Positions 3,679 through 40,273 of a stretch of 42,605 nt of DNA are shown here, in pieces. The notes under the pieces are model-generated. The model saw only the letters and a program-made list of their open reading frames with translations, did no database searches and had not been told where the DNA came from. Made by a program: the position numbers and the translations under genes. Source of the DNA: a virus; IMG/VR virus record IMGVR_UViG_3300024999_000193, positions 1-42,605 of that record. One strand, 5' to 3'. Positions within the stretch are counted from its first letter, which is position 1. Each line of letters opens with the position of its first letter.

Positions 3679-4515
3679 TTATCCTAGATACTTTCCGACA
3701 GCTTGAGCAGTATCATACTTCGTATTTCCACTTAATAAAATCTCATTTTGATGATTTACAGAACCACCTCCGACAACGATCAATTTCTTAGCACTCATAG
3801 CTTCTTTTGGGATAGTCCCATTAAACCTAGTAAATAAAGCACAATTTCCATTCTTTACACAGACATCATAACCACTCCAATAGTCTTCCTTTGAAAATAA
3901 AAGTACAGCAATGTCTAACACATTATCATCTCCTTGATTATTATTTATTGTTGATTGGATAGTAGAAATAGGACTCTTTAATTCAATAATTTTAACATCA
4001 ATTGCTTGTAATAATTCATCCCATGTTTTTCCATGTGATTGAAGATATCCTATTGGGTCTGTATGATTACTCTCTGATGGATACATTAGACTAATTCCTC
4101 TATGACTATTTACATTATCATTTGTATTCCATCCATATTGTACGCAACTTTGGGCAATTAACCAAACTACTCGATTCCATGCTTCTTGAAATTTATTTGA
4201 ATCATCAAATTCACACAGCTCTACCTGAAGAAACTTATGATTTCCAGTATATCCACATGCCCAACATATTTCATTCTCAGGTATCATTTTTATGATTGTT
4301 TGATAATCAACTGCATAATGTGAATTTGCTTGATTTTGTGGATGATTTTCAAAAGAATTTCTAATATTTATTGCTGGTACATTGGAACATGCAGTAGAAT
4401 GAATTACCCATCCTTGAGGATTTAAAGTATCATCTGAACGTGGTTTTCCTTCATTTCGTGTATGTATTAATAATGGGCGATTTTGTAACAATTGTTCATT
4501 AATTTTATATGACAT
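3679..4515 (-). CDS. Endolysin: N-acetylmuramoyl-L-alanine amidase (Amidase_2) with cell-wall-binding tail
   Basis: A 278-residue protein. The N-terminal domain (about 1-170) is an Amidase_2/PGRP-type zinc amidase, which cuts the bond between muramic acid and the stem peptide: GWVIHSTA gives the first zinc ligand (His39), ANSHYAVD and QVELCE are the usual core strands, and SNHTDPIGYL supplies the His and Asp ligands. The C-terminal part (about 198-278: LFSKEDYWSGYD, VVGGGSVN, LLSGNTKYDTAQAV) resembles the CWB2 cell-wall-binding repeat. No signal peptide, so release depends on the downstream holins. It probably replaced the broken Amidase_3 gene at 5419-5709 as the working lysin. Confidence 0.85.
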   Translation of the reverse strand: MSYKINEQLLQNRPLLIHTRNEGKPRSDDTLNPQGWVIHSTACSNVPAINIRNSFENHPQNQANSHYAVDYQTIIKMIPENEICWACGYTGNHKFLQVELCEFDDSNKFQEAWNRVVWLIAQSCVQYGWNTNDNVNSHRGISLMYPSESNHTDPIGYLQSHGKTWDELLQAIDVKIIELKSPISTIQSTINNNQGDDNVLDIAVLLFSKEDYWSGYDVCVKNGNCALFTRFNGTIPKEAMSAKKLIVVGGGSVNHQNEILLSGNTKYDTAQAVGKYLG

Positions 4516-4543
4516 ATTATATTTATTCCTCCTTTTATTTAAG

Positions 4544-5212
4544 TTATATCTCTAATTTAATATGTTTCCAAGTTTTATTATATTTTATATTCCATACTAT
4601 TGAATCACTAATATCTAATATTTTGGAAATTTTTTTTGTCTTCATTCCATCTCTTAACATTATTTTTATAGTCATGGCAATTTTATCAGTAATTTTAGAT
4701 GTCGGGTTATTTTCTCCCCTTGACATCCATTGTAACAGTTTTCTTTTTTCAGACATCTTTTTCCCAAACATTGGATTTCCCTCACCTTTTCTTGATTCAC
4801 TTAATTGTTCTTTTCGTTCTTCTGACCATTTTCCAGGAGATTTTCCCATATGTGCTATACTTATCTTTTTCTTTGTCTCGTTTGATAATTTTAAACCTGT
4901 AGTACCGTTTGCAGATGGAGAAATATTATAACCAATTTCAGAGTCATAACACCTAAATAAATCTAAAAAATATTGTTCTCTTATTAATAGGTCTTCGATA
5001 TTAATTAATTGTTCTAGTATAATAAACTTAAAACTAATTTCTCCGTATTTATTAAATGATCTTTGTAGGTGCTTATTGTAATGCGAATTCGATCTTAAAC
5101 TTCCAAAATGTTCTCTCTCCCTTTTTCTAAGATTATTACTGCTCCCTATGTAAAACTTGCCATTTACATTGTTCAGTATTTTATATATTCCCATTTTTAT
5201 CACTTTTTTCAT
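4544..5212 (-). CDS. GIY-YIG homing endonuclease
   Basis: A 222-residue protein. Residues about 8-90 are a GIY-YIG nuclease: GIYKILNNVNGKFYIGSS, then RKREREHFG and HLQRSFNKYG, with a conserved Glu near LIREQYFL. The middle has three NUMOD3-like DNA-binding repeats (LSNETKKKISIAHMGKSPG, SEERKEQLSESRKGEGNPMF, then MSEKRKLL). The C-terminus (MKTKKISKILDISDSIVWNI) is a helix-turn-helix of the NUMOD1 kind. This is the standard I-TevI/Seg layout. The RBS is TTAGGAGGA. It sits alone between a small LAGYLM-type gene and the endolysin, beside a truncated amidase. Its arrival may have accompanied that truncation. Confidence 0.9.
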   Translation of the reverse strand: MKKVIKMGIYKILNNVNGKFYIGSSNNLRKREREHFGSLRSNSHYNKHLQRSFNKYGEISFKFIILEQLINIEDLLIREQYFLDLFRCYDSEIGYNISPSANGTTGLKLSNETKKKISIAHMGKSPGKWSEERKEQLSESRKGEGNPMFGKKMSEKRKLLQWMSRGENNPTSKITDKIAMTIKIMLRDGMKTKKISKILDISDSIVWNIKYNKTWKHIKLEI

Positions 5213-5229
5213 TAAAACATTCCTCCTAA

Positions 5230-5406
5230 TTATTTGTTTTTGAAAACTAAATAGTTCTGAATCGCATTTTGCAACTCAGAACTATCATTAAATATAAATA
5301 TTTTTCTATTAGATTTCTGATCATCTCTCATTAGTTTAAGCACAAATCCTTGCAACATTAAATATCCAGCAAGACGAAGGGAATAACTACTAAATTCTTG
5401 TCTCAT
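5230..5406 (-). CDS. Small LAGYLM-type protein, copy 2 of 3 (DUF5659-like)
   Basis: A 58-residue protein starting with ATG at 5406 after AAAGGAC. It reads SLRLAGYLMLQGFVLKLM, then NRKIFIFNDSSELQNAIQNY. It matches copy 1 (277-483) and copy 3 (15312-15488) at the LAGYLM..GF.L, NR.IF.F..S and AI..Y positions. It lies between the truncated amidase and the GIY-YIG endonuclease, in the place where the missing C-terminal half of the amidase would be. Function unknown. Confidence 0.75.
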   Translation of the reverse strand: MRQEFSSYSLRLAGYLMLQGFVLKLMRDDQKSNRKIFIFNDSSELQNAIQNYLVFKNK

Positions 5407-5418
5407 TTAAACAGTCCT

Positions 5419-5709
5419 TTATAAAAAATTATAATATGTTTTTTTGTGAAAACTTATGAATACATCTGGATTATATTGTTTTGCAAGTATAATTCTGTTT
5501 GTTAAATCGGTATTCTCGTCATATGAATTTGGGCAAAAATCTTTATCGGTTGTTCTCGTATAATTTACTGTGATTCCATGATTTTGAAGTATTTTTCCAA
5601 CCTTTAATCCTAAAGTTAGATTATTATTTTTTTCTTGTGTTTTTAAACCAATACTTCCTGGATCTCTGCCACCATGACCAATATCAAGAACACATGTTTT
5701 ATTACTCAA
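5419..5709 (-). pseudogene. Truncated N-acetylmuramoyl-L-alanine amidase (Amidase_3), N-terminal half
   Basis: 96 residues match the first half of an Amidase_3 zinc amidase: LDIGHGGRDPGSIG (zinc ligand His12), Glu26, and VFISFH (zinc ligand His88). A normal domain is about 170-180 residues and continues with a segment carrying the catalytic Glu. Here the frame ends eight residues after the last His (KKTYYNFL), and no other frame downstream carries the rest. The zinc site may remain but the catalytic Glu is missing, so I expect no amidase activity. The good start and intact frame allow a residual wall-binding role. Confidence 0.75.
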
Positions 5710-5733
5710 TTATTTCACCTTCTTCAATATTAT

Positions 5734-7143
5734 TTATTTACTACTCACATATACAATCTTACTATTCTTATAACCCAAACCCTTTAAACTCTTATATAAT
5801 CCCTTAATTTCATCACTCCCATTATCTGCAAATTTCCCAACATAAACTTTAAAATATTTTCCATTTTGAATCACAAAAGAATCATAATCTAAATTCTTAC
5901 TATTTAATGTAATTAATAAATTATCTGTTATTGCTTTATCTTTTGTGGATAAAACCTCCAATGTGTAATATTTACTAATTGGCACAATATAAATGTACAT
6001 ATAATCTGATTTAATGTAAGACTTATTATTGGATTGACCTTTGTATGTGTACTTTGCATTTACTTTGATTTTCCCTTCTCTAGATGTAATTAATAAATTA
6101 TCTGCTATTTTTGCTATGGAAGTATCAGATACAAACCATTCTACTTTATCTGTAACGTCTATTTCTGTTTTATAATTATTATCTGCAATTGCTTGTAATT
6201 GTAAAGAATCACCGGAAAACACTTTGCTAATATTTAATTCAGAAATTATATCCAATTTCCTGATTTTAAATAACGGATCAGGTGGTAATTTAGATTCGTC
6301 GGAGTCTATTATTGCCCAATATTCATTTATAGGATAATCAAAAGGCATTAAACAATATCCGTGCATACTTCCCCAGTCTCCACCCCATGAATTTAAAACT
6401 TTCCAATAAGGTTTCCCATTGATAGTAGTCCATGCTACGATTACTAATTCGTGACCTCCACGATATTGTTCTGTTTGATAATTTGGTTTTGTAAGTATTC
6501 CTCCTGTATAAAAACTGTCATAAACAGGGATTGTAATAACTATTGGACTTACATTGACCAATGCTTGCTTCACTTCTTGTTCTGTATGCAATCTAATAAA
6601 TCCATCAATTTTGTGATTTTCAGCTTCTTTTATCATAGACTGAGTTATCAATGAATGTAATTCCAAAAATGTGCCATGTGTGGAGAAGGAATTATTTAGA
6701 CAAGTCCCATACTTACAAAAGCATTCAAGAGCCAATGAGGGATGCATCCCTTCTCCTGTATAATAGTATCCTTTTCTAAAACCATAAATAAAACTTGCAC
6801 TGTGCTCTTCGTCTGGATTATTATTCTGGAGAGATAGCATATCTTTTGTTGCGCTAAATGCATGAGCTACGCAAGATCCAAAATTTCCCTGATCTAGAAC
6901 TTTTGGCAATAGATTGGGCCAAGTGTATTCTTGTAAATCTTGTAATTTAATATTTTCTACAATTTGGCTATTTTTTAAAAATCCGTCAAGAGTTATAGAC
7001 CCTTCGGCATCAGAAGGAGAAGATATAGCATCGAGTTTATATTGAGTATAATCCTTTGTTGTATTTGCTGAGTAAGTTGAACTAGAACAAAACAATAAAC
7101 TTACAGACAGAATTAAAATTAACAACCATTTATTTATTTTCAT
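5734..7143 (-). CDS. Secreted papain-like cysteine protease with Ig-like and SPOR-like domains
   Basis: A 469-residue protein. Residues 1-26 are a signal peptide (WLLILILSVSLLFCSSS). Residues about 75-285 are a papain (C1A) domain: DQGNFGSCVAHAF holds the oxyanion Gln and catalytic Cys91, GGHELVIVAW has His231, and VLNSWGGDWG has Asn251. Next is an Ig-like (BIG2-type) segment at about 295-385, then a SPOR-like end (YYTLEVLSTKDKA, then YFKVYVGKFADN) that may bind peptidoglycan. A complete catalytic set on a wall-directed secreted protein suggests a host- or surface-modifying enzyme. It follows a terminator (7175-7206). A second papain-like enzyme without signal peptide lies at 16708-18105. Confidence 0.85.
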   Translation of the reverse strand: MKINKWLLILILSVSLLFCSSSTYSANTTKDYTQYKLDAISSPSDAEGSITLDGFLKNSQIVENIKLQDLQEYTWPNLLPKVLDQGNFGSCVAHAFSATKDMLSLQNNNPDEEHSASFIYGFRKGYYYTGEGMHPSLALECFCKYGTCLNNSFSTHGTFLELHSLITQSMIKEAENHKIDGFIRLHTEQEVKQALVNVSPIVITIPVYDSFYTGGILTKPNYQTEQYRGGHELVIVAWTTINGKPYWKVLNSWGGDWGSMHGYCLMPFDYPINEYWAIIDSDESKLPPDPLFKIRKLDIISELNISKVFSGDSLQLQAIADNNYKTEIDVTDKVEWFVSDTSIAKIADNLLITSREGKIKVNAKYTYKGQSNNKSYIKSDYMYIYIVPISKYYTLEVLSTKDKAITDNLLITLNSKNLDYDSFVIQNGKYFKVYVGKFADNGSDEIKGLYKSLKGLGYKNSKIVYVSSK

Positions 7144-16707: not shown

Positions 16708-18105
16708 TCACATAAATTCTTTAATAGTGTTAATATTATCAGCTAAATTTGTAAAATCAGCAGTATATATAAGTTGCCCAGTAGTTGCTAAAGGATTACT
16801 GATTCCCATTTCATTTATAGCACCTCTAACCTCATTAAAAATTAAAGCAGAAATCTCTGTTTCGCCAGCAATCGCTTGAGTAAAATTTACTATTGGATAT
16901 CCGTTAGAGCTTCTTATGGCACTTATAAGCGTAGTCAATCTATTCCAATCATAAGCACTAATATTAACAAGTCCTCCAGAAGAATTTGGGTTTACACTCC
17001 AACTAAAGTTATTGAAATCTTCGACAGTGAAAAAGTAAGCAATATAGTCCCACTCTAGAGGCATGTAAGCTCTTCCAAAATCCGAAGCATCACCCCAATT
17101 GCCCCAATTGTTATGAACAATCCACCATGTTCTTCCGTTTACGACTTTCCACCCGATTAGATTAACTACATGGAATCCTCTTATATTTCCAACTGTATCA
17201 GGAATGTATCCATCGGAAATATATGGTTGATAACCTTGTGTTAATTGGTCAAACGAAGGAGGTATGGCGATATTCAATAAAACGCAACCGTCATCAATGA
17301 TCCTTTGCTTTATGACTTCAATTATATTTTTCCCCCAACCATTTAACTCCCCCAACCAATCATTGGTTGTATATTGTTCCCACGACAATATTCTTTGTAA
17401 AAGAGCATCTGCAGAAATTGTTGGTGTAGCTTTATTATTATTAACTAATGTTTTGGCACCAATTGCTACTCCGTTAACATTATCGTTGTAATAATAATTA
17501 TCCGGATAATACCTCAGACTATTTTCAGGTAACAATTCCCATTTAGGAACTCCTTCGGCCTTCAGTCTATCTAACCCCTCGGGCACATACATATCCTCAC
17601 CTTGATTGTCGGTGGGAAGTCTATTTCCGAATACCCATCCTGTTGAATAGGATAAATATGATTGTCCTCTTTCCCTTTTTTCGTGGATTTCCTTCATCGA
17701 CGCGACACTGGTGGCAAAACAATTCCCTGCTTGACCAGACCATGTTCCATTCGCAGTATTCCAGACCCACTGGTGTAAAACTTGCGGTTTATATACTGGC
17801 AAATAATCAGTTGGTAAACTTGTAGGGTATGCAGGAATATTTACGCTATAATAACTAGTCCAATCAGAGGTTACTCCACTCACTATAGATCGAACGCGAT
17901 ATGAATGTGTTGTTTCAGATTTTACATTGCTAAAATTAACAGTTGTGGCAAAACCTGTAAATGAATATATTTTTACAAATCCACCAATTCTACTTGTTTC
18001 GATCTCAATAGAACTTGCGCCGGAAACCTGATAAAAACTAATTATAGATTTATAAACATTGTTATCAAATTCGTATACACAACTAATTACTGTTGGGGCT
18101 GGCAT
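16708..18105 (-). CDS. Papain-like cysteine protease in the tail operon
   Basis: A 465-residue protein without signal peptide. Residues 1-95 form a fibronectin-III-like domain (SSIEIETSRIGGFVKIYSFT, later HSYRVRSIVSG). About 105-355 is a papain-like domain: GQAGNCFATSVAS with Cys129, GFHVVNLIGW with His312, and VHNNWGNWGD with Asn332 where papain has NSWG. The C-terminus (SALIFNEVRGAINEMG) is helical. The RBS lies inside the preceding gene, which overlaps it by 23 bases, so the two are coupled. Position between Tal and BppU suggests a baseplate-attached enzyme, perhaps cutting surface proteins at entry or a virion protein during assembly. It is not a close copy of the secreted enzyme at 5734-7143. 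Confidence 0.8.
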   Translation of the reverse strand: MPAPTVISCVYEFDNNVYKSIISFYQVSGASSIEIETSRIGGFVKIYSFTGFATTVNFSNVKSETTHSYRVRSIVSGVTSDWTSYYSVNIPAYPTSLPTDYLPVYKPQVLHQWVWNTANGTWSGQAGNCFATSVASMKEIHEKRERGQSYLSYSTGWVFGNRLPTDNQGEDMYVPEGLDRLKAEGVPKWELLPENSLRYYPDNYYYNDNVNGVAIGAKTLVNNNKATPTISADALLQRILSWEQYTTNDWLGELNGWGKNIIEVIKQRIIDDGCVLLNIAIPPSFDQLTQGYQPYISDGYIPDTVGNIRGFHVVNLIGWKVVNGRTWWIVHNNWGNWGDASDFGRAYMPLEWDYIAYFFTVEDFNNFSWSVNPNSSGGLVNISAYDWNRLTTLISAIRSSNGYPIVNFTQAIAGETEISALIFNEVRGAINEMGISNPLATTGQLIYTADFTNLADNINTIKEFM

Positions 18106-24833: not shown

Positions 24834-25598
24834 TTATAGAGTTTTAAACTGGTATCTAAACTGAAGTTTACAAGTTCCAATTATTTTTATGTTATTTACT
24901 CCACGGATCATATTTATGAATACCCCATTATGATTATCATATCTATAAGTTAATGGGATAGATGTTATTATTTCTTCGTTTTCATTATCTATGTATAAAT
25001 CTTCATTTGCAATAAGGGAAGTTAGTTTGAATTCTGATCCTCCATTTGATAAATTAGTTATAGAAACATCTCCGTCTCCAATTTTTTGAAGTGAGAGAAT
25101 TGGTTGACAATTTACATCTCCATTATTGATGAATTGCATTTGTGTGAAGGTGGGGTTTGTAGATAAATCGTAAAGTGGAGATAAAAATTGTGATGAGTAA
25201 ATAAATTGATCTTTGCAACGCATTTGAAGAGTTATGTAACCACTATCTCCCGTATGGGATAATGTAGAACTACTATCTAATATGCAATAAAAGATCAAAT
25301 CGGGAAGAGATTCAAAAACTAATGGACAGTATTTTTCTTGGGACAACCATCTTTTTACCGAACGAAGGTTATCTTGATCAAATTCTTCTGTAAATGCAAT
25401 TGTTAAATTCAATATTCTTGGAGATGATTTCACTTCTACAAAATATGGAGATGATTTACGAGTGGTAATTTCTTTAATTTCTCTATCTGTAATGAATGAT
25501 TCTTCAAATAATCCTGAATCAATTTTGCAATTAATTATATTATAATCTACTGAAGATTGATTATTAAACGTAAATGAGAGGGATTCTGAGATGGGCAT
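24834..25598 (-). CDS. dit: Distal tail protein (Dit)
   Basis: A 254-residue protein with the pattern of siphovirus distal tail proteins: LSFTFNNQSSVDYNI at the start, FVEVKSSPRILNLTIAFTEE, then WLSQEKYCPLVFESLP and YCILDSSSTLSHTGDSGYIT, and a C-terminal galectin-like beta domain. Dit links the tail tube to the tip protein encoded next (18500-24799). GGAGGTGA, seven bases before its ATG, lies inside the end of the upstream endonuclease gene, which overlaps dit by 35 bases. About 5 kb of accessory genes separate it from the tape measure, its usual neighbour. Confidence 0.85.
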   Translation of the reverse strand: MPISESLSFTFNNQSSVDYNIINCKIDSGLFEESFITDREIKEITTRKSSPYFVEVKSSPRILNLTIAFTEEFDQDNLRSVKRWLSQEKYCPLVFESLPDLIFYCILDSSSTLSHTGDSGYITLQMRCKDQFIYSSQFLSPLYDLSTNPTFTQMQFINNGDVNCQPILSLQKIGDGDVSITNLSNGGSEFKLTSLIANEDLYIDNENEEIITSIPLTYRYDNHNGVFINMIRGVNNIKIIGTCKLQFRYQFKTL

Positions 25599-26604
25599 TG
25601 TTACTTTTCACCTCCATTTGTTTGAAATATTTAACCAATATATCTTCTATGTTATCAAAATCATAATACCAAATTTCAAGAAAATTATATTCTTTCTCTA
25701 AAGCATATTCTTTCTTTCGTCTATCATGTTCTTTTTGTGTTTCAAAATCTTTCTTTGTTTGATTACCTGCAGTTCCATCATGGTATTGTCCTTGATACTC
25801 TATAAGATTATATTTTGGCACATAGAAATCGTATGATAGTAATTTTCCTCCTTTTCCCAATAATCCTTTAAATGTTTTTTGAGATATAAAATATATATTG
25901 TTGATTTTATCAACTTTTAATAATTTGTTATAATTATCTTGAGTTATTTCGACAAACTTGTTAATTTTATAAACTCTTTTACATTCCTTTTCTCCTTTAG
26001 ATTCTGAACATTCTGGGCAACCATTACCAAAACTTCTTCCTCCAATTGTTGAAGGCCATTCACGTCCACATTCTTTGCATTTCCACCAAACTTTTTTGTT
26101 GCTATTTTCCGTTACGTCATAAGGAGTTAAATCTCCGTTTTCAGTTGGATGCCATTCGGATGCTAGTATTGGATTTTTAGTTGCTAGACAATTAGATATA
26201 CCCACTTGTTTAGGTGCGACACAACAATATCCACACCCTTTTTCTTGTGATATATCGGACCAATTTGCTTCAAATACTTCTTTACAACCATCTTTAAGAC
26301 ATTGCCATTTCAATTTTATTTTGTTGCCTTCATATTTATTACTTATTAATTCAAATAGTTTTTTCTCCAATTTACACCATAATATAATATTTTGAATAGT
26401 ATAGATGTTACTTGTATCAAATTTTCGTGGAGGATGATGACCTTTTAATAATGAATGAAGATTAACATAAAATAAATAACCCATTTTATCAATTAAAGTA
26501 ACATGTTTTTTATTAACATAATATAAATCAACGAATTTTAATCCCATTTCTAAATTGTCTATTAATCTTTGAATATTTTGAACGTTATATTTATTATTAC
26601 CCAT
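25564..26604 (-). CDS. Zinc-ribbon homing endonuclease with Vsr/EDxHD-like core (3)
   Basis: A 346-residue protein. The middle has DUF4379-like zinc ribbons: NPILASEWHPTENGDLTPYD, VWWKCKECGREW and CPECSESKGE, preceded by CLKDGC and CGYC. The C-terminal core has LLSYDFYVPKYNLIEYQGQY, then QKEHDRRKKEYALEKEYNFL and EIWYYDFDNIE, giving the acidic residues and the xHD motif (EHD) of the EDxHD Vsr-like family. Its last 11 codons read through the ribosome site and first codons of dit. It is the last gene of accessory cassette B and follows the structured RNA at 26664-26722. Confidence 0.85.
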   Translation of the reverse strand: MGNNKYNVQNIQRLIDNLEMGLKFVDLYYVNKKHVTLIDKMGYLFYVNLHSLLKGHHPPRKFDTSNIYTIQNIILWCKLEKKLFELISNKYEGNKIKLKWQCLKDGCKEVFEANWSDISQEKGCGYCCVAPKQVGISNCLATKNPILASEWHPTENGDLTPYDVTENSNKKVWWKCKECGREWPSTIGGRSFGNGCPECSESKGEKECKRVYKINKFVEITQDNYNKLLKVDKINNIYFISQKTFKGLLGKGGKLLSYDFYVPKYNLIEYQGQYHDGTAGNQTKKDFETQKEHDRRKKEYALEKEYNFLEIWYYDFDNIEDILVKYFKQMEVKSNNAHLRIPLIYV

Positions 26605-30000: not shown

Positions 30001-33000
30001 TTATCTTCCTCTAATAATCTGTGCTCGCTCGATTTTCCTAATAGTAAAATCTGCTGCTCTTTCCAATTCTTTATTGGATATTTTTCCATCAACCGATGTT
30101 ACATTGAAATTAATATTAGGAATTGTTACATTTGTTCCTGATGAATTATTATTTATAAATTTAGGCATCTGAAATGATGGCATATTAAATGATGGTAATT
30201 GGATATTTTTGATTAAATCCATTAATGGGGTATTACCAGTTCCATTTGCATAAGATGGAATATTTAGCAGTTTTGCTTTACTAAGAAGAGATTCTGTTTC
30301 ATTGTGGTTGAGAATTTCTGTTCCTATGGGAAGATTTGCTATTTTTGCCCCACTATTATCGCCAAGAATTTGTTTACCAGAAGGAAGAATTAATAACTCT
30401 CTTCCTTCTTCATCGAATGATGCTAATCCACCAGGATGAGATTTTGTACCTGATGCATTGGCAGGAATCTCAGGAATACTATCTGATGCTTTTTTAATTT
30501 GAGCAATAGTTTTTATAATTTTCTTAAACTCTTTATCAATTTTATTTGCACTAGTGGTTAAATCTTCAGTATATCCATCAGAAAATTTCTTTAAAGAAGT
30601 TTGAATGTCAGTAATATTTTTGTCAATAATTTCTTTTTTCTTATCGGCGAAATATTGATCATTAGCCATCATTGTATTATAAGTTTCATCTGCTGATTTT
30701 TTATCTGCCTCATATCTAGTTTTTGTAGCATTATAAGATTCGTTTTCAGCATTCTTTTTTGCTTCTAATACTTTTTTAATTTCATCTAATTGATCTTGTA
30801 AATTTTGTTTGCGAAGTTCAATAGTATGATCGGCTTGCATATCATTAATTGAAGAATTTTTCTCATCAATCTGTTTTTGCAATTCTGCTACTCTTGCTCT
30901 TCCCTCTGTCGATGTATCAAGAGAAAGAGAATCTTTTTCACTTTGAAGTGTTTGAACTTCAGATTGAGCAGAATTTAATGATTTATTATAGTCTTCAGCA
31001 GATTTCAATTTATCTATGGCATCGATTTGAGCATTAATCGAATCTTCATAAGCTTTTTCTTCTTTATCTAGATTATCCAGAACTTTTTGATGAGCAGAGT
31101 CTAATTTTTTCATTTTTTTCTCATATGCTTCATCATCTAGTTTTTTCTGATTTTCATAATATTGTTTTAGAAGAGCAATTGCTTCATCTGCTTGAGATGA
31201 TTGGAGAGATTGGAGAGATTGCTGGAGTTGTTTCTGGGATTCTGTAACAGAGTTTATGGAACTTTTTGTATCCATCCACGCTTTTTGAAGTTTTGATAAT
31301 TTATCAAAAGTAGCTGAAAGTTGTTTTTGGGTTTCAACAGATGAAGCATTCCATAGATTTTGATATTCTAATGTCGCTTCGCCTTGTGGGTCAATAAATT
31401 GTGATGTGTTTTGAAATCCTGATTGGGTTGAAACTTTTGCAAACTCTGCTTCTATTTTTGATTTCGCTTCATTGCGTTGTGATATTTCTAATGATTGATT
31501 CTTTATCAAATCATTAGTAAGAGATAGTTCTTTATTTAAATCCTTTGCAGATTTTGCATTTGCTATTTGTTTTTCTAAAAGTTTCCCTGCTTCTGCCGTC
31601 ATATTCGCTTGAGTTTGGAATGAACGAATTAGAGATTCTTCAATATCGACTTGTTCTGCTAAAGAAGAGGATGGTTCTTTTTTGTCTTTCTGGGCTGATG
31701 GATAACTTCCAGAATATGCTGCAGACTTGATATTCCCTAGTAATGCTTTCATTGATGCAATTTTATCTTTTGTAGCATTGTCAGCATCAATTTGTTTTTG
31801 TAAAATATCTGCTTCTGCTTTTAATCTAGCTTCTGCTTCTGATTTTAATTGTTCTTCTCTATTAGCATATGGAATTCCACCTGTGGCATCTACATTCGTT
31901 AAATCAACAGTAGGTTTAAAAAATGATGGTAAGCCAGAATTATAGGCGGAATTTCTTCTTTCTATCGCCTCCGCTTCAAGTATCAGGTTATTAATTCGTA
32001 CCTTTGTATTTTCTGCTTCTACTTCAGTAAATTTTATAGATTCTTGAAGAGATGTTATCATTCCATCAATGCGAACTTGGAGTAAACTTTGAACTGCTTC
32101 CTTGTTCAATGTTAACTGTCCGTTTTCAACTTTTAATTGATCAATTAATTGGGGGTATTTTGTAACTAAATCTACAATGGTTGATGCTGATAACTTTCCT
32201 GTCTCATTATATTCCTCCATAGCTTTTGAAACATCTGTTGCTAAAGAAGTAACATCTTTAAGACTATCTGCTAAATCTTTTGATGATATAGCAATACCTT
32301 TTATAGAATTAGTTGCTTTTGGAGCATTATCTAATTTTATAGCATCATTAAAATATTTAATAATTTTAGTTGCTATATCTGCTTCAACACCATGTTTTTT
32401 TAAAGCAGATTCCATATCTTTGATATCTTCTGTTGCTTTTTCAGTAGTAGTTACTTTGGTCATATCTTCAGATATTCTTTTAAATACTTCTGACACGTCT
32501 AATTTACTAAATACTCCCATTACAGATAAAAGGTCATTAAATCCTTTACCAGAATCGAAAGTTGCTTTTGATAAATTATTAATTAAACTTTGACTTAATT
32601 TGTTGGATGACTCAGTAGATTGATCAAAAGCGTATGCTTCTTGAGAAAGTGTTTTCTGTATTTCATTGCTTTCACCTGACAATTTAGTTCTTTCTGTAGC
32701 TAATTCCGCTATTGATTCTTGATAGTCTTTAATGAATTTATTATTTACTTTAGCACTAATAAAGTCATCAGGGTTTGAGTCATTATAATTTTGTAAATTG
32801 GTAACTTTACTATTCTTTTCAGAAATTTCAGCATTAATTTCTTTAATTCTATTTTGTTTTTCTAATATCTCATCATATTGATCTTTACCCATAGAATTAA
32901 ATTTAGATGATAATTCTTGTTGTTGAGTAATTAACAAGTCTTTTTTAGCTTGAGTTAATTGTTTAACATATTCTATATCCACTTGAATTACTTTACCTTC

Positions 33001-34642
33001 AGAATCTAATTGGATTACAGAATCTCCAAAGAGAGATGATAGTCTTGCTGTGGCGTTTGCTAATTCTTCTTTTTCCTCAGTAGTTTTGCCTAATTTATCA
33101 TACAACTTTTCATATGAAGATATAAGAGATGGTAGTTCAGTAGTTTCTTTTTTGAGTTGTGAAATACTCATTGTAAGATTTTCAAATTCTTCTTTTGCTT
33201 TTTCTGTTTTTTGTGTAAGATTTGAAAATGCTGTAACTGCTCCCATTATTAAAAGAGATAGTCCAACAGTCAATGCTGCATTAAATGCTACTGTTGCAGC
33301 CGTAGCCCCCACTGTTGCAATAGTCTGAGCAATAGTTCTTCCAGTCAATGCAGTATAACCAACTTGAACAGTATTAGTAGAAGCCCTTACTCCAGCTAAA
33401 GAAGCCGATAAAGAATTATTAATTCTTATATTTTCTGCCATTACAGATGCGTATCTTGTTTTGAAATTCATTAAATTTTTAGTTAACTCACTAAAAATAC
33501 CAGACCCAACACCTATAGATGCTCCAGATACACCAACATTTGTAAAACTAAGTGCAGTCCATTGTTTTTTAAATAAAGAAAGAGCTATAACTGCTGTTGC
33601 TAGTATAGTAGGAATACCGCCAATTGTACTTGTGATTTTTGTAAATATTCCCACCAAACTAGTTGCAGAGGAAACCATTTCTTTTAATGCGTTTGAATTA
33701 ATTATAGATGCAGAAAATTCCTCTCCTGCGACTTTTAGTAATCCTAGACGACCACTTAAACTGTCTAATTTTTTAGCGTTCTCGTCCAACGCACTATTTT
33801 CACTGTTCCTCGCCTTTGCCGCGGCATCTAGTTTTATCTGGTAATTTTCTAATAAGGCGATGAATTTCGAATAATGATAAGTCGAACCCATACTCTGCGC
33901 TACTGCCAACTGCTCTTGTTTTGACATTTCGCTCCAACCACTTTTTATCTCAGAAATAAGGTCATTAAAGCTTTTCAAGTTACCATTTGCATCTGATGTG
34001 TCAATATCCATAATCTCTTTTAATGCTTTTGCTGTTTTCCCTAATTCATCAGGGTTAGATTCATCGGTTCTATAAATACGACTCATAAAAGATTTTATGG
34101 CTGTTCCAGCTTCATTACCAGAAATTCCCAAAGATTGTACTATTGCCGCAGTCATTCCCTCTAAATCTTCCATATCTGTGTTGGCTAACCTGCTCGCTGC
34201 CCCGATCTTGGAAATTGATGCTACCATGTCCTCTGCTGATACTTTAAAATTATTCTGAACCTCATTTAGCGAATTCAATATCCTCATAGAATCTTTTGCT
34301 TCTATACCAAAAGTAATCATACTTGTTGTAATTGCCTTGGCAGCCTCCGCTGATGTCATTGTAGTGACGTTCGATGCCATTGTTGCAACACGAGACAATT
34401 CAATTATTTCATTCTGATCTTTGGTAATTCTTCCAAATTCTGCCATACCTTGCATAATTTCAACACTAGATTTACCAAGTTGTTTACCTAAACCAATTGC
34501 TGATTCTGCCATTTCATTTAATTGATTAGACGAAAAATCGACAACTTTCGACAAATCTGTGAGAGCTGTATCCATCTGGTAAACATATTGAATTCCTTCC
34601 TGCAATGCCCGAAATGGAGCGTAGAAAACTGTGGCTGCGGCG
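30001..34642 (-). CDS. Tape measure protein, exon 2 (C-terminal 1,547 residues)
   Basis: The conserved minor-tail domain of phage tape measures starts at the exon join: AAATVFYAPFRALQEGIQYV, YQMDTALTDLSKVVDF, then the TMP core (AKAITTSMITFGIEAKDSMR). Hydrophobic stretches (GIPTILATAVIALSLF and VGLSLLIMGAVTAF) come next, and long coiled coils (YYENQKKLDDEAYEKKMKKL) fill the C-terminal half. The proline/phenylalanine-rich tail reads MPSFNMPSFQMPKF. The open frame continues upstream past the TTG at 34605 to a stop at about 34651, so these codons must be joined to exon 1 by splicing. The protein sets tail length and is ejected with the DNA. Confidence 0.85.
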
Positions 34643-35085
34643 CGGTTTGTTCAATAGAGGTCGTTAATCTCTACCAGTTCTCAATAAAACTTAATAGTTT
34701 AATATGAACTTCTGCATGTTTTCCATGCATGCCCAGACTATATCATCATCCTTATTTCTAAGGAGTCTCTCGTTTCGAGTCACTTGACCCTACTTCCCTC
34801 AAGGGGAATAGTCGTTGAACTGTATCCTATTCGGATATAAGCTGCTGAAGACGCATTGTTTATAGCACTTAGGATTTAACCATATGCCATCCTAATTATT
34901 TTTTCTACTTTCGTCACCATCACGTTTAGGTATATTTCATCCTTGCGTTGTGGTTAATTAGGCTCTTAGCGATTGCCAGACAGTTGATGAGATTTTGAAT
35001 AAGTTGTTATACGTCACTTATCACTACATACAGTTCACACTATATGCGGAGCTTCACGTTTGTCTTTATCGACAAATATTGACAA
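34643..35085 (-). ncRNA. ORF-less group I intron in the tape measure gene
   Basis: The minus strand carries the conserved group IA-type core in order: GCGTCTTCAGCAGC, GTTCAACGACTATTCCCC, AGGGTCAAGTGACTCGAAAC, GAGACTCC and GATGATATAGTCTGGGC. These match the P, Q, R and S regions of phage introns such as those of Twort and SPO1. The two flanking frames are halves of one tape measure protein and cannot be read through without removing this part. It has no internal ORF. Exact ends are not settled: removing 34643-35085 restores the frame (...GLWSI, AAATVFYAPF...), with the last intron base a G. A better P1 pair (GGAGT with GCTCC, U-G at the site) would put the 5' end three bases earlier in another phase. 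Confidence 0.85.
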
Positions 35086-36737
35086 ATACTCCAAAGACCT
35101 AATTTAAAAATGTCCTTTCCGAACGTAGTTACAATGCTATCTGCTGCACTATTAATCCTAGAAATTTCATTCGTAGCACTTCTTACAGATGTAGTTAATT
35201 GTGCAAATTGTAAATTTACTTCTCTAGCAGACCTTCCACCAACTGTACCAAACCTTGCTATACTATCCGTCAAACGATTTGTTTCAGCTACAATCTCTGG
35301 TCTAGCAAAAACAGTATCCGTCCTTCCAACCTGTAAACTTGCTAATTTATTACTCATAGTATCTTGGAATAATGAAATATCATTTGAACTTAGACTTCTA
35401 GGATTAGTAGATGCCATAATTCTCTGTAAATCTTGATACTGCTTTATCTCTAATTTTAAATCAGAAATATTTTGAATTATTCCTCTACGTTGTTCATTTG
35501 AAAGTCCTGTACCCGCAGTTCTTACTTGATTTATTGTATTTATAATCTGTTCATATTTTACATTTAAATTATTTAAGTGTCCTTCATCACTAATACCAGT
35601 AGCAGGAGATGTAAATCCAGTTTGCAATCTTTTTATTTGATTCTCATAAGTTTGCAACCTATTTAACGAAGATTGATTAGCACTTGCATTCCTTTTATTT
35701 TCTGCGTCTGATAAACTATTTGTAACTAATTTTAATTTATTTTTTAAATCAGTCTCTAATTCTAAATATTGTACAGAACGTTGTTGGTCTACTAAATTGT
35801 TATTTACTGCTCTATTTTGAGAAGATGAAAGTCTTGCTGTTTGCAATTGTAGCATTTTCTCTAATTGAGATATTTCTTTAGTATTATCTGTTGGGTTAAC
35901 TTTAGCAAGTTTTTCTTTTAGCGAATATACACTTTTTAATAATTGTTCTTGCTGTCTATATGAATCAGCAATTGCTTTTAATCTCTGTACTTCAACCCCT
36001 TTTGCATTACTCTGTCCTGTATCTTTATTATATTCTGTTTGTGCTGTTTTTAACGTATTGAATAGTTTTGCCTGTTCTTTTAATTCTGCGGTAGTAGTAC
36101 CATTCATCTTGCCTTGATTATATAAATTTGCAGAAGCAGTTATAAAACGTTCTGCACTAATACGCTGTGCTTTATATAGATCAATTAATTTTTGTACAGC
36201 ACTAATTTCTTTTTTAACTGCTTCTGCTTTGCTCTGTGTATCTTTTACAACTTTTTTAGCAGATTCTTGAGATGCCATTTCTATCTTTTTAAATGTCATC
36301 TCTTCTGAACCATTTGTTGTTGTGTTAACATTTACTGTAAATTTACTTGTTTCTTTTATTTTTCCATTAAGTCTATCTACACTAACTTCAAATTGTTTTA
36401 AAGACGCATCAGCATTGCTAAAAACTTGTTTAACTTTAACATTGTCTCCGAGGGTTGCAAAATGTCCTCTTATTTTTTCAATCCCATATAGTATCTTATC
36501 CATTTCATGATTGGCTTCTCCAAAACTTCCAACCTTAATAGATTTATTACTTTGTGACTGTGCCTTTTTTTGAACTTCTTCTATTTTCTGAGTTATTAGT
36601 TGAATATCCTTTGAATCTATATTTAATTTAACCGAAATTGTTTGTGTTATTTGTTTGTTTAAGGCTCTTATTTGTGTTTCAATTTCTTCCTTTGTTGAAG
36701 ATATCTTTGCTTTAATTAATATATTTAAATCATCCAA
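35086..36737 (-). CDS. Tape measure protein, exon 1 (N-terminal 550 residues)
   Basis: The N-terminal part is almost entirely coiled coil: LIKAKISSTKEEIETQIRAL, ITQKIEEVQKKAQSQSNKSI, and later LKLEIKQYQDLQRIM. It ends with ARFGTVGGRSAREVNLQFAQ, then SIVTTFGKDIFKLGLWS, where a tape measure would run on into FYAPFRALQEG; that continuation is found at 34642 after the intron. If unspliced the frame ends 15 codons later at about 35040. The start is a TTG at 36737 with AGAGAGGTGG seven bases upstream. Spliced length would be about 2,097 residues. Confidence 0.85.
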
Positions 36738-38431: not shown

Positions 38432-40273
38432 TTATGTTAATGCTAATTCTTTTATTCTAATCTCTCTTTTAATATCCAACAACCTATCCTCTTCTTTTGT
38501 AAATCCAACTCTCTTTTGATATTTATGTTGACAATTTTGATCACAAAAGAATCTTTTATTGGTAATATACTTATCTTGAATAACTTCAATTTCTTTGTTG
38601 CAATTATTGCACTCCACTTTAAAGCGTTTACGATTTGCTTTTCCTTGACATTCATTACTACAATAGTGATGTTCATTAATGCTATATTTACCAATTAATT
38701 GTTCTGTTTCAATCCCACAACTCTCACAATTAAACGTAATCCATTTATCTAATTGTTTGTGACTCATCTTTTCTTTAACTGTCGTATCAGTAATTTCTCT
38801 AATGTCTTCTGAATCATATTCCATGTACGGAATAATTAATTCATTATTTAGAGTAAGTATTGAGTCAACAATATTATAATTAAACGATTGATAATTGTCC
38901 AAAATACCTTTATTATTAACATATTCTTGAACCAATAGTTTACACAATTCTGTATTATTATTTATATCAAATTCCCATAAGTACAAAATCTCTATTAAAT
39001 GATTGTTCTTAATATATGTATGTTTTGCCTTATCAATCTTAATTCTATTAACCTGTATTTCATAATTTATTTCTTTATAGAATCTAGGATCTGTGTGCCA
39101 GTATTGACCTTGACATTCAATCATCAAATTATGCTCATTTAGATAATTGTCAATCGCATAATATTTACAGTTGTATTCATTGTCATATTCAATATTTAAA
39201 TCACCTAAAATTTTATTAGTCAATAATTGAATGCTAGTATCTGTCTTATTCATTACACCATCAGATAAATTTTTAACAGCTTGTATCCTAGACCTTTCTA
39301 TATTTTCTTCTGTAATCGAAAATTCTTTTGCAAACCAATCTTGTCTACATTTATCAGAACAAAATCTCCTTCCATTTTCTATTTGATGTGGTTTAGCCTG
39401 ATGTTCCAATCCACACCATTCACATGTAATAGTTCTATCTTCAATAGACCATTCATGGTTGTACCCGTTAGCATTTTCCCCTGATAAATTTATAGATTGC
39501 CATTTCCCTTGGCATTGAATTGAGCACATTTTTTGAGTACTTGTTTTAAAACATTCAAAATCTCCTCCACATATTTCACAACTTCTAATCTCATGTGATC
39601 TATTATGTTTATATTCTATCTCACAATCTAAGGAACAATAATTATTTCCATCTCTACTTTGGTATCTTCTATTATAATCTTTACCACAATTTGTACATAC
39701 TATATCTTCATATTTAGGATGCTCTCTGTAATATCCTTTTTTACATTCTTGACAACAAAATTTTTGATCTAGCACATTGTCATAAATATCAAATTCTCCT
39801 TCACAGGAGATACATTTCCCTTTTCCAATTACCCTATGAAAATTTTTACCTTTTTTATATTTATTACTACATGATTTATCACAAAAATGTACTTTAGATG
39901 CTAAATATACAGATGATGGTGTTACCATATCTTTTTCACAGTTATCACAATTACATTTTACTTGTAATGGTGTTCTTCCACTGACTTTTAAATAATTACT
40001 AACAACATCACACAATTCTCTTAAATCTTTATTAAGTAAAGTTGCTATATCATTCAAAAATATTGGTTTCTTATTGATCAAATTGTCTATTATTATAATA
40101 TATTCGTCTATCGTCCATCCGTCTTTAATCGTATAATTCTTATTTCTTTCAAACCATCCACATAGCGTACATTTAGAATCGTAATAGCCTTTTCCTTTTG
40201 AATTAAACTCACTAACTGATTTTTCTTTACCACAAACCTTACATACTTTAGTCTCAACATTAACATTTTCCAT
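38432..40273 (-). CDS. Giant zinc-finger endonuclease with Vsr-like core, 613 residues
   Basis: About nine treble-clef-like zinc sites surround one nuclease core. Before the core are CKVCGKEKS with CTLCGW; CNCDNCEKD with CDKSC; CISCEGEF with CCQEC; CTNCGKDY with CSLDC; CEICGGDF with CSIQC; CEWCGLEH with CSDKC. After it are CESCGIE with CSNEC, and CNNCNKE with CDQNC. The core at about 345-440 reads YYAIDNYLNEHNLMIECQGQ, YWHTDPRFYKE, then VNRIKIDKAKHTYIKN and LIEILYLWEFD, like the PD-(D/E)XK endonucleases elsewhere here. At 613 residues it is nearly twice the size of the others. It follows the structured RNA and terminator of cassette A. Confidence 0.8.
   Translation of the reverse strand: MENVNVETKVCKVCGKEKSVSEFNSKGKGYYDSKCTLCGWFERNKNYTIKDGWTIDEYIIIIDNLINKKPIFLNDIATLLNKDLRELCDVVSNYLKVSGRTPLQVKCNCDNCEKDMVTPSSVYLASKVHFCDKSCSNKYKKGKNFHRVIGKGKCISCEGEFDIYDNVLDQKFCCQECKKGYYREHPKYEDIVCTNCGKDYNRRYQSRDGNNYCSLDCEIEYKHNRSHEIRSCEICGGDFECFKTSTQKMCSIQCQGKWQSINLSGENANGYNHEWSIEDRTITCEWCGLEHQAKPHQIENGRRFCSDKCRQDWFAKEFSITEENIERSRIQAVKNLSDGVMNKTDTSIQLLTNKILGDLNIEYDNEYNCKYYAIDNYLNEHNLMIECQGQYWHTDPRFYKEINYEIQVNRIKIDKAKHTYIKNNHLIEILYLWEFDINNNTELCKLLVQEYVNNKGILDNYQSFNYNIVDSILTLNNELIIPYMEYDSEDIREITDTTVKEKMSHKQLDKWITFNCESCGIETEQLIGKYSINEHHYCSNECQGKANRKRFKVECNNCNKEIEVIQDKYITNKRFFCDQNCQHKYQKRVGFTKEEDRLLDIKREIRIKELALT

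Follow-up and report, generated by a model that had tools for sequence, protein, structure and literature searches.

A free-standing IA2-like intron in a phage tape measure gene, related to TnpB IStrons and probably spliced one base before its U-G pair

In nearly all group I introns the 5' cut follows the U of the U-G pair. To our knowledge, a G at position -1 is almost unknown among them, and the one-base shift has been demonstrated experimentally only in group B IStrons. These elements (BcISt1, CsISt1 and CbISt1-4; IS607 type) are IA2-like, with a U-G pair followed by an internal loop, a target ending in AG or GG and a 3' end of CGG or CAG; by RT-PCR, BcISt1 splices after G, with U as the first intron base (PMC4227781). 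The IS component of IStrons starts directly after the P9.2 stem, at GAACAA or GAACAC (PMC4227781). The 2014 survey by Tourasse et al. reported no separate copies of IStron introns in any genome. Its one IS-free intron of group B type, only loosely related, was an IA2 intron with a GGAGG homing site in Turicibacter, and the survey treated splicing after G as puzzling and in want of more cases (PMC4227781). Introns in tape measure genes are also known: that of the Vibrio phage ICP1 holds three, one with an HNH endonuclease and some with no endonuclease gene, and their splicing was demonstrated by RNA-seq and RT-PCR (PMC10448857).

The DNA analysed here (the window) is a viral sequence of 42,605 nucleotides, IMG/VR record IMGVR_UViG_3300024999_000193, whose tape measure gene is, like that of ICP1, interrupted by an intron lacking an endonuclease gene. 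Our preferred reading, held at a probability of about 0.85, is an IA2 intron that belongs to the lineage of IS607 IStrons but is free-standing, and that is spliced after G. The features, in the order of the transcript, are as follows (arrows below mark cuts).

35089..36737, minus: tape measure gene, 5' exon, ending ...TTTGGAG; ORF of 565 aa with a putative TTG start at 36737; homologous to L002-L005
34643..35088, minus: group I intron, IA2-like, no ORF; 446 nt from U at 35088 to the omega-G at 34643, as placed by RF00028, frame, empty-site comparison and P9.0
35088..35092, minus: P1 exon side, GGAG (35092-35089) plus the intron U (35088) of the U-G pair; pairs with 35048-35052
35048..35052, minus: internal guide sequence GCUCC; its G at 35052 is the partner of U 35088, and beside this pair stands an A-A mismatch (internal loop)
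35026..35047, minus: P2 hairpin, GCAUAUAGU-GUGA-ACUGUAUGU; covarying pairs in the six-sequence fold
34808..34813, minus: P7 5' strand GACUAU; RF00028 match and six-sequence fold
34764..34807 (approximate), minus: P7.1/P7.2 hairpin region and P3 3' strand, an IA2 feature; RF00028 match and fold
34736..34741, minus: P7 3' strand AUAGUC; RF00028 match and fold
34732..34733, minus: P9.0 5' side GG; pairs with CC at 34644-34645
34653..34675, minus: P9.2 hairpin; six-sequence fold
34643..34645, minus: CC of P9.0 and omega-G, the 3' splice site by frame test and P9.0 exchanges
30001..34642, minus: tape measure gene, 3' exon, starting CGCCGCAGCC...; PF10145, E=7e-31; homologous to L002-L005

The intron is real and far from a chance match. 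Scanning with cmscan gave a single Intron_gpI (RF00028) match in the whole record, at 34712-35051 on the minus strand (40.2 bits, E=1.2e-8), covering the full model (1-253); Rfam sets its gathering threshold higher, at 50, and a default scan therefore misses it. A fold of six sequences, the window intron and five relatives, contains 108 pairs, and in 43 of these both partners have changed. The window ORF list holds no ORF inside the intron, bearing out the first-pass annotation of an ORF-less intron of group IA type in the tape measure gene. The IA2 hallmarks are a catalytic core P3-P8 with the P7 G-binding site (full-length RF00028 match, covariation), P7.1/P7.2 and P9.0/P9.1/P9.2 in the alignment fold, with exchanges in P9.0, and an omega-G end, CCG at 34643-34645, joined to P9.0. 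Departing from them is the near-universal 5' exon ending in U paired to the guide G: frame and homologues place the cut ahead of that U.

Sequence comparison thus also gives the window intron two marks of group B IStrons, a predicted splice after G with U first and a U-G pair followed at once by an internal loop (the A-A mismatch), together with their kind of AG/GG-ending target. Unlike group B IStrons, the window intron terminates directly after P9.2, 6 nt beyond the GAAC that follows this hairpin, and ends in CCG rather than CGG or CAG. It lacks TnpA and TnpB, and neither PF07282 nor serine recombinase (PF00239) domains occur in the record; the AU-rich inverted repeat is absent from this copy, and the window gave no RAGATH-18 match for a guide RNA. 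Since the IS component, a defining feature, is missing, we do not class the copy as an IStron; by sequence it is an IS-free intron of the IStron ribozyme lineage. The Turicibacter intron resembles it, going by the published description alone, in being IS-free, group B-related and set at a GG-rich target; it differs in lying in another gene, in a bacterial genome, and its 3' end differs from that of IStrons (PMC4227781).

The minus-strand frames that flank the intron, one ending at 35040 and the other beginning near 34605, had been taken for halves of one tape measure protein, and this held up. The 3' half contains a PhageMin_Tail domain (PF10145, E=7e-31), and with the exons joined at 35089/34642 a single open frame of 2096 aa runs across both. 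Four close tape measures (L002-L005) came from a protein search of 2.9 million viral contigs. Those of L002 and L003 are contiguous at the site, reading FKLGLW-SAAAT-IFY and FKLGLW-AGAAT-AFY, and the tape measures of SPBc2, vB_BcoS-136 and Sundance keep the same spacing across it; no relative was found that carries the intron sequence as protein. L004 and L005 hold a related intron, 80-82% identical to that of the window, at exactly the same position. The intron enters between Trp and AAAT, five codons ahead of FYAPFR, and not within the conserved motif FYAPFRALQEG where it had been placed; the intron-free alleles read TGG-TCG or TGG-GCT there. Neither the tape measure protein nor a guide/P2 DNA pattern found prophage relatives in bacterial genomes. 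Two other causes of a split gene were rejected, a sequencing error by the agreement of three independent contigs and a translated insert by its in-frame stops.

The 3' end at 34643, as first annotated, is set by the omega-G and by P9.0, whose two sides have changed together (GG/CC in the window, L004 and L005; UG/CA in L029, L032 and the Alicyclobacillus phage). For the 5' end the comparison supports GGAG↓U, giving an intron of 34643-35088. Only this cut (TGG AG↓C GCC) makes the window product match its homologues in length, SPBc2, vB_BcoS-136 and Sundance included, and at five loci (window, L004, L005, L029 and Alicyclobacillus phage KKP_3916) a cut at +0 leaves the frame open and true to length. 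L029, an IStron described below, supplies empty sites: most of the 27 intron-free loci of its host gene read ...GGNAG↓ATATGG, with no U, and the IStron therefore ends U...CAG and is cut before the U. Cuts at GGAG↓...CCG↓ and at GGAGU↓...CCGC↓, one base apart, would yield the same protein (Ser as AGC or AGU); the omega-G and P9.0 favour the former. P10 pairing, weak in the window copy and suggestive in L004, was left out of the splice-site evidence.

Tail-tube introns of Staphylococcus Silviavirus phages (SSP49, qdsa001), with about 60% core identity and the same P9.0 logic as the window intron, served as controls. Measured against the intron-free phage K protein, which we take to be a valid yardstick, three of them follow the usual cut after U by sequence reading and guide pairing. 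They differ from the window intron in this canonical cut and in the base pair that flanks their U-G: the position beside the U-G is paired in 3/3 canonical Staphylococcus introns and mismatched in 7/7 introns of the window's kind. The tail-tube gene of both phages has three or more introns, and the qdsa001 annotation calls it a truncated capsid protein. The introns L007 and L008 of Enterocloster phages were dropped as controls because an internal endonuclease gene makes their 3' ends ambiguous. An automated P1/frame survey of 61 loci resolved seven cases, all cut before Y, and zero canonical ones; as it mis-picked P1 in L006 and L068 and the omega-G in L005, our conclusions rest on the hand-checked cases.

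Two other 5' boundaries were weighed. In an ordinary group IA intron the U of the U-G pair would be the last exon base, the exon ending GGAGU at 35088. The resulting P1 (GGAGU/GCUCC) would be ideal, and the related Staphylococcus tail-tube introns, one of which has the same guide GCUC, are cut in this way and in frame. With the 3' end set by P9.0, however, such a +1 cut breaks the frame at the five loci above, where it meets early stops, and at three more (L068, L072 and L086), and it would call for a U that the L029 empty sites lack; we consider it improbable. The conflict between U-G pairing and frame noted in the first-pass annotation arises from assuming this cut, and disappears with a cut one base earlier. 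The frame-preserving site chosen there, an exon ending AGUAU and an intron of 34643-35085, does place a U at -1 in the window and is in frame, but we think it very improbable. At all five loci the corresponding +3 cut, though open, adds one residue, in the window an Ile (ATC) between Ser and Ala that no homologue has; the base at -1 is A in L004 and L005, and P1 would need a three-base bulge. Junctions reading TGGAGUCGCC and TGGAGUAUCGCC would be incompatible with a cut before the U.

Under the preferred reading of a splice after G, the guide GCUCC would pair in the transcript with GGAG-U around the 5' boundary, the U-G pair giving way immediately to an internal loop as in group B IStrons. Exogenous G would attack between GGAG and U, one base ahead of the U-G pair, and the omega-G at 34643, positioned by P9.0, would set the 3' cut. 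Ligation of the exons as TGG AG↓C GCC (W-S-A-A-A-T), with a predicted junction of TGGAGCGCCGCA, would then restore the 2096-aa tape measure protein. From these comparisons we infer that the window intron splices by this chemistry.

The closest relatives found outside the tape measure site are two phage TnpB IStrons, L029 and L032, with 82% and 80% core identity to the window intron; a search of viral contigs with the pattern of the closest introns gave four loci only. L029, recovered with a pattern derived from P9.2, shares its source metagenome with L002, L004 and L005. It is an IS607-type IStron (3770-5666) in a small phage structural gene, in which P9.2 is followed by an AU-rich repeat, a TnpB gene (PF01385, PF07282, PF12323) and a RAGATH-18 RNA (E=3.5e-12); with 27 uninterrupted relatives as empty sites, it is a good test case for phage IStron boundaries. 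RAGATH-18 is the guide RNA of IS607 TnpB, whose TAM is AGGAG or GAGGG (PMC11061315). L032, a 167-kb phage contig, likewise carries a TnpB (PF01385/PF07282) IStron with RAGATH-18, within the tape measure region; at about 4400-6800 this IStron seems nested in another, probably group I, tape measure intron. An Acetoanaerobium record has a GAGG↓U boundary with TnpB. The TnpB L035 of the L005 phage was considered as an intron partner and discarded, being linked to no group I intron.

Two further observations concern this group. Around 7640 in L110 lies another TnpB IStron, with GGAG↓U, apparently in the coiled-coil part of a phage tail gene. A leader, GACAGAGGGTNGCTCC...TACTGCAAT..., is common to L029 (about 4280-4365), L110, L007 and L008, where it stands 5' of the intron-borne ORF; it precedes both TnpB and GIY-YIG endonuclease genes, the latter in L007 and L008.

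IS-free introns of the GGAG↓Y kind were also found in L068 (about 2070-2423), L072 (8989-9390) and L086 (5947-6429), each in frame solely with a cut before Y. As read from protein sequence, the first two are in tape-measure-like genes at other positions and the third in another structural gene. The tail gene intron of Alicyclobacillus phage KKP_3916 (L006) shares with that of the window its IS-free form, the GGAG↓ boundary, the guide AAGCUCC and 70% identity, and differs in having C-G in place of U-G, a CAG end and another host gene. That split gene (L006 2276-3452) is annotated as two hypothetical proteins, and its relatives in Sundance and in Lactococcus phages are uninterrupted. A plasmid of Paenibacillus larvae (L037, NZ_CP019656) has at about 1840-2350 an IS-free intron, in frame with its gene, apparently with a group A IStron-like target (TTTAT) and a TCAG end.

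The window 5' exon is 84% identical to that of intron-free L002 and 64-67% to those of intron-bearing L004 and L005, so that gain or loss of the intron has taken place among these phages. The L002 site reads TGGTCG and not TGGAG, which suits neither a precise loss of the intron nor its plain insertion into an allele of that kind; we infer that it was more likely exchanged along with flanking exon sequence. Having no TnpB, TnpA or guide RNA, the intron would not transpose autonomously and would probably spread by recombination between co-infecting phages.

Two histories, both compatible with a free-standing intron spliced after G, bear on this. In collaborative homing, known in phages (PMC10448857), a free-standing endonuclease would cleave intron-free tape measures and so spread the intron. 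The window has candidates, Vsr-like genes at 694, 8860, 14269, 25564 and 38432 and a GIY-YIG gene at 4544, and the exon identities do record gain or loss. Against this, relatives of the endonuclease at 25564-26604 are present in intron-bearing phages but also in the two that lack the intron; that at 38432-40273, the nearest upstream, has no detectable relative in any of the related phages; there is no clear signal of a co-conversion tract around the junction, and the target sequence is not the same in the intron-free alleles. For neither of these two endonucleases was a specific association with the intron seen. That window endonucleases mobilise it in trans, as proposed at first pass, is possible but unsupported, and we regard collaborative homing as rather unlikely. 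Alternatively, an IS607 IStron may have inserted here and lost its whole IS part, leaving the intron, for which the chance seems to us not far short of even. The IStron relatives are 80-82% identical, L029 being from the metagenome of L002, L004 and L005; the GGAG target matches the IS607 TnpB TAM (PMC11061315), and ORF-less BcISt1 copies are known (PMC4227781). Yet no remnant of an inverted repeat or guide RNA is present, the intron ends in CCG, its P9.0 having co-varied, and not in CAG, and the outlying Alicyclobacillus intron is also IS-free, so that the IS-free state may be ancestral. The intron tree, a near-trichotomy of the window, L004 with L005, and the IStrons, does not separate loss of the IS from its original absence.

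Elsewhere in the window, the Vsr-like gene at 25564-26604 overlaps the start of a tail gene (24834-25598, DUF6558) by about 35 bases, and two putative papain-type cysteine peptidase genes, assigned on sequence impression, lie at 5734-7143 and 16708-18105.

IS-free introns with a predicted G↓Y cut thus occur at several independent phage sites, once beside TnpB relatives of the same metagenome. To our reading, IS-free introns cut after G in several phage genes are undescribed in the literature searched, which covers IStron-TnpB studies of 2023 and later only thinly. Where introns of this sort split a tape measure or tail gene, annotation takes the gene for a broken one. The window intron offers a small IS-free ribozyme for studying 5' site choice, and the set as a whole a natural one in which to examine how introns become joined to RNA-guided transposons. 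We suggest tentatively that phage structural genes may host a free-living intron lineage, cut one base before the U-G pair and inserting behind GGAG, the IS607 TnpB TAM, that would be, within phage populations, either the source of TnpB IStrons or their decay product. If so, tape measure, portal and tail genes would hold IS-free and TnpB forms side by side.
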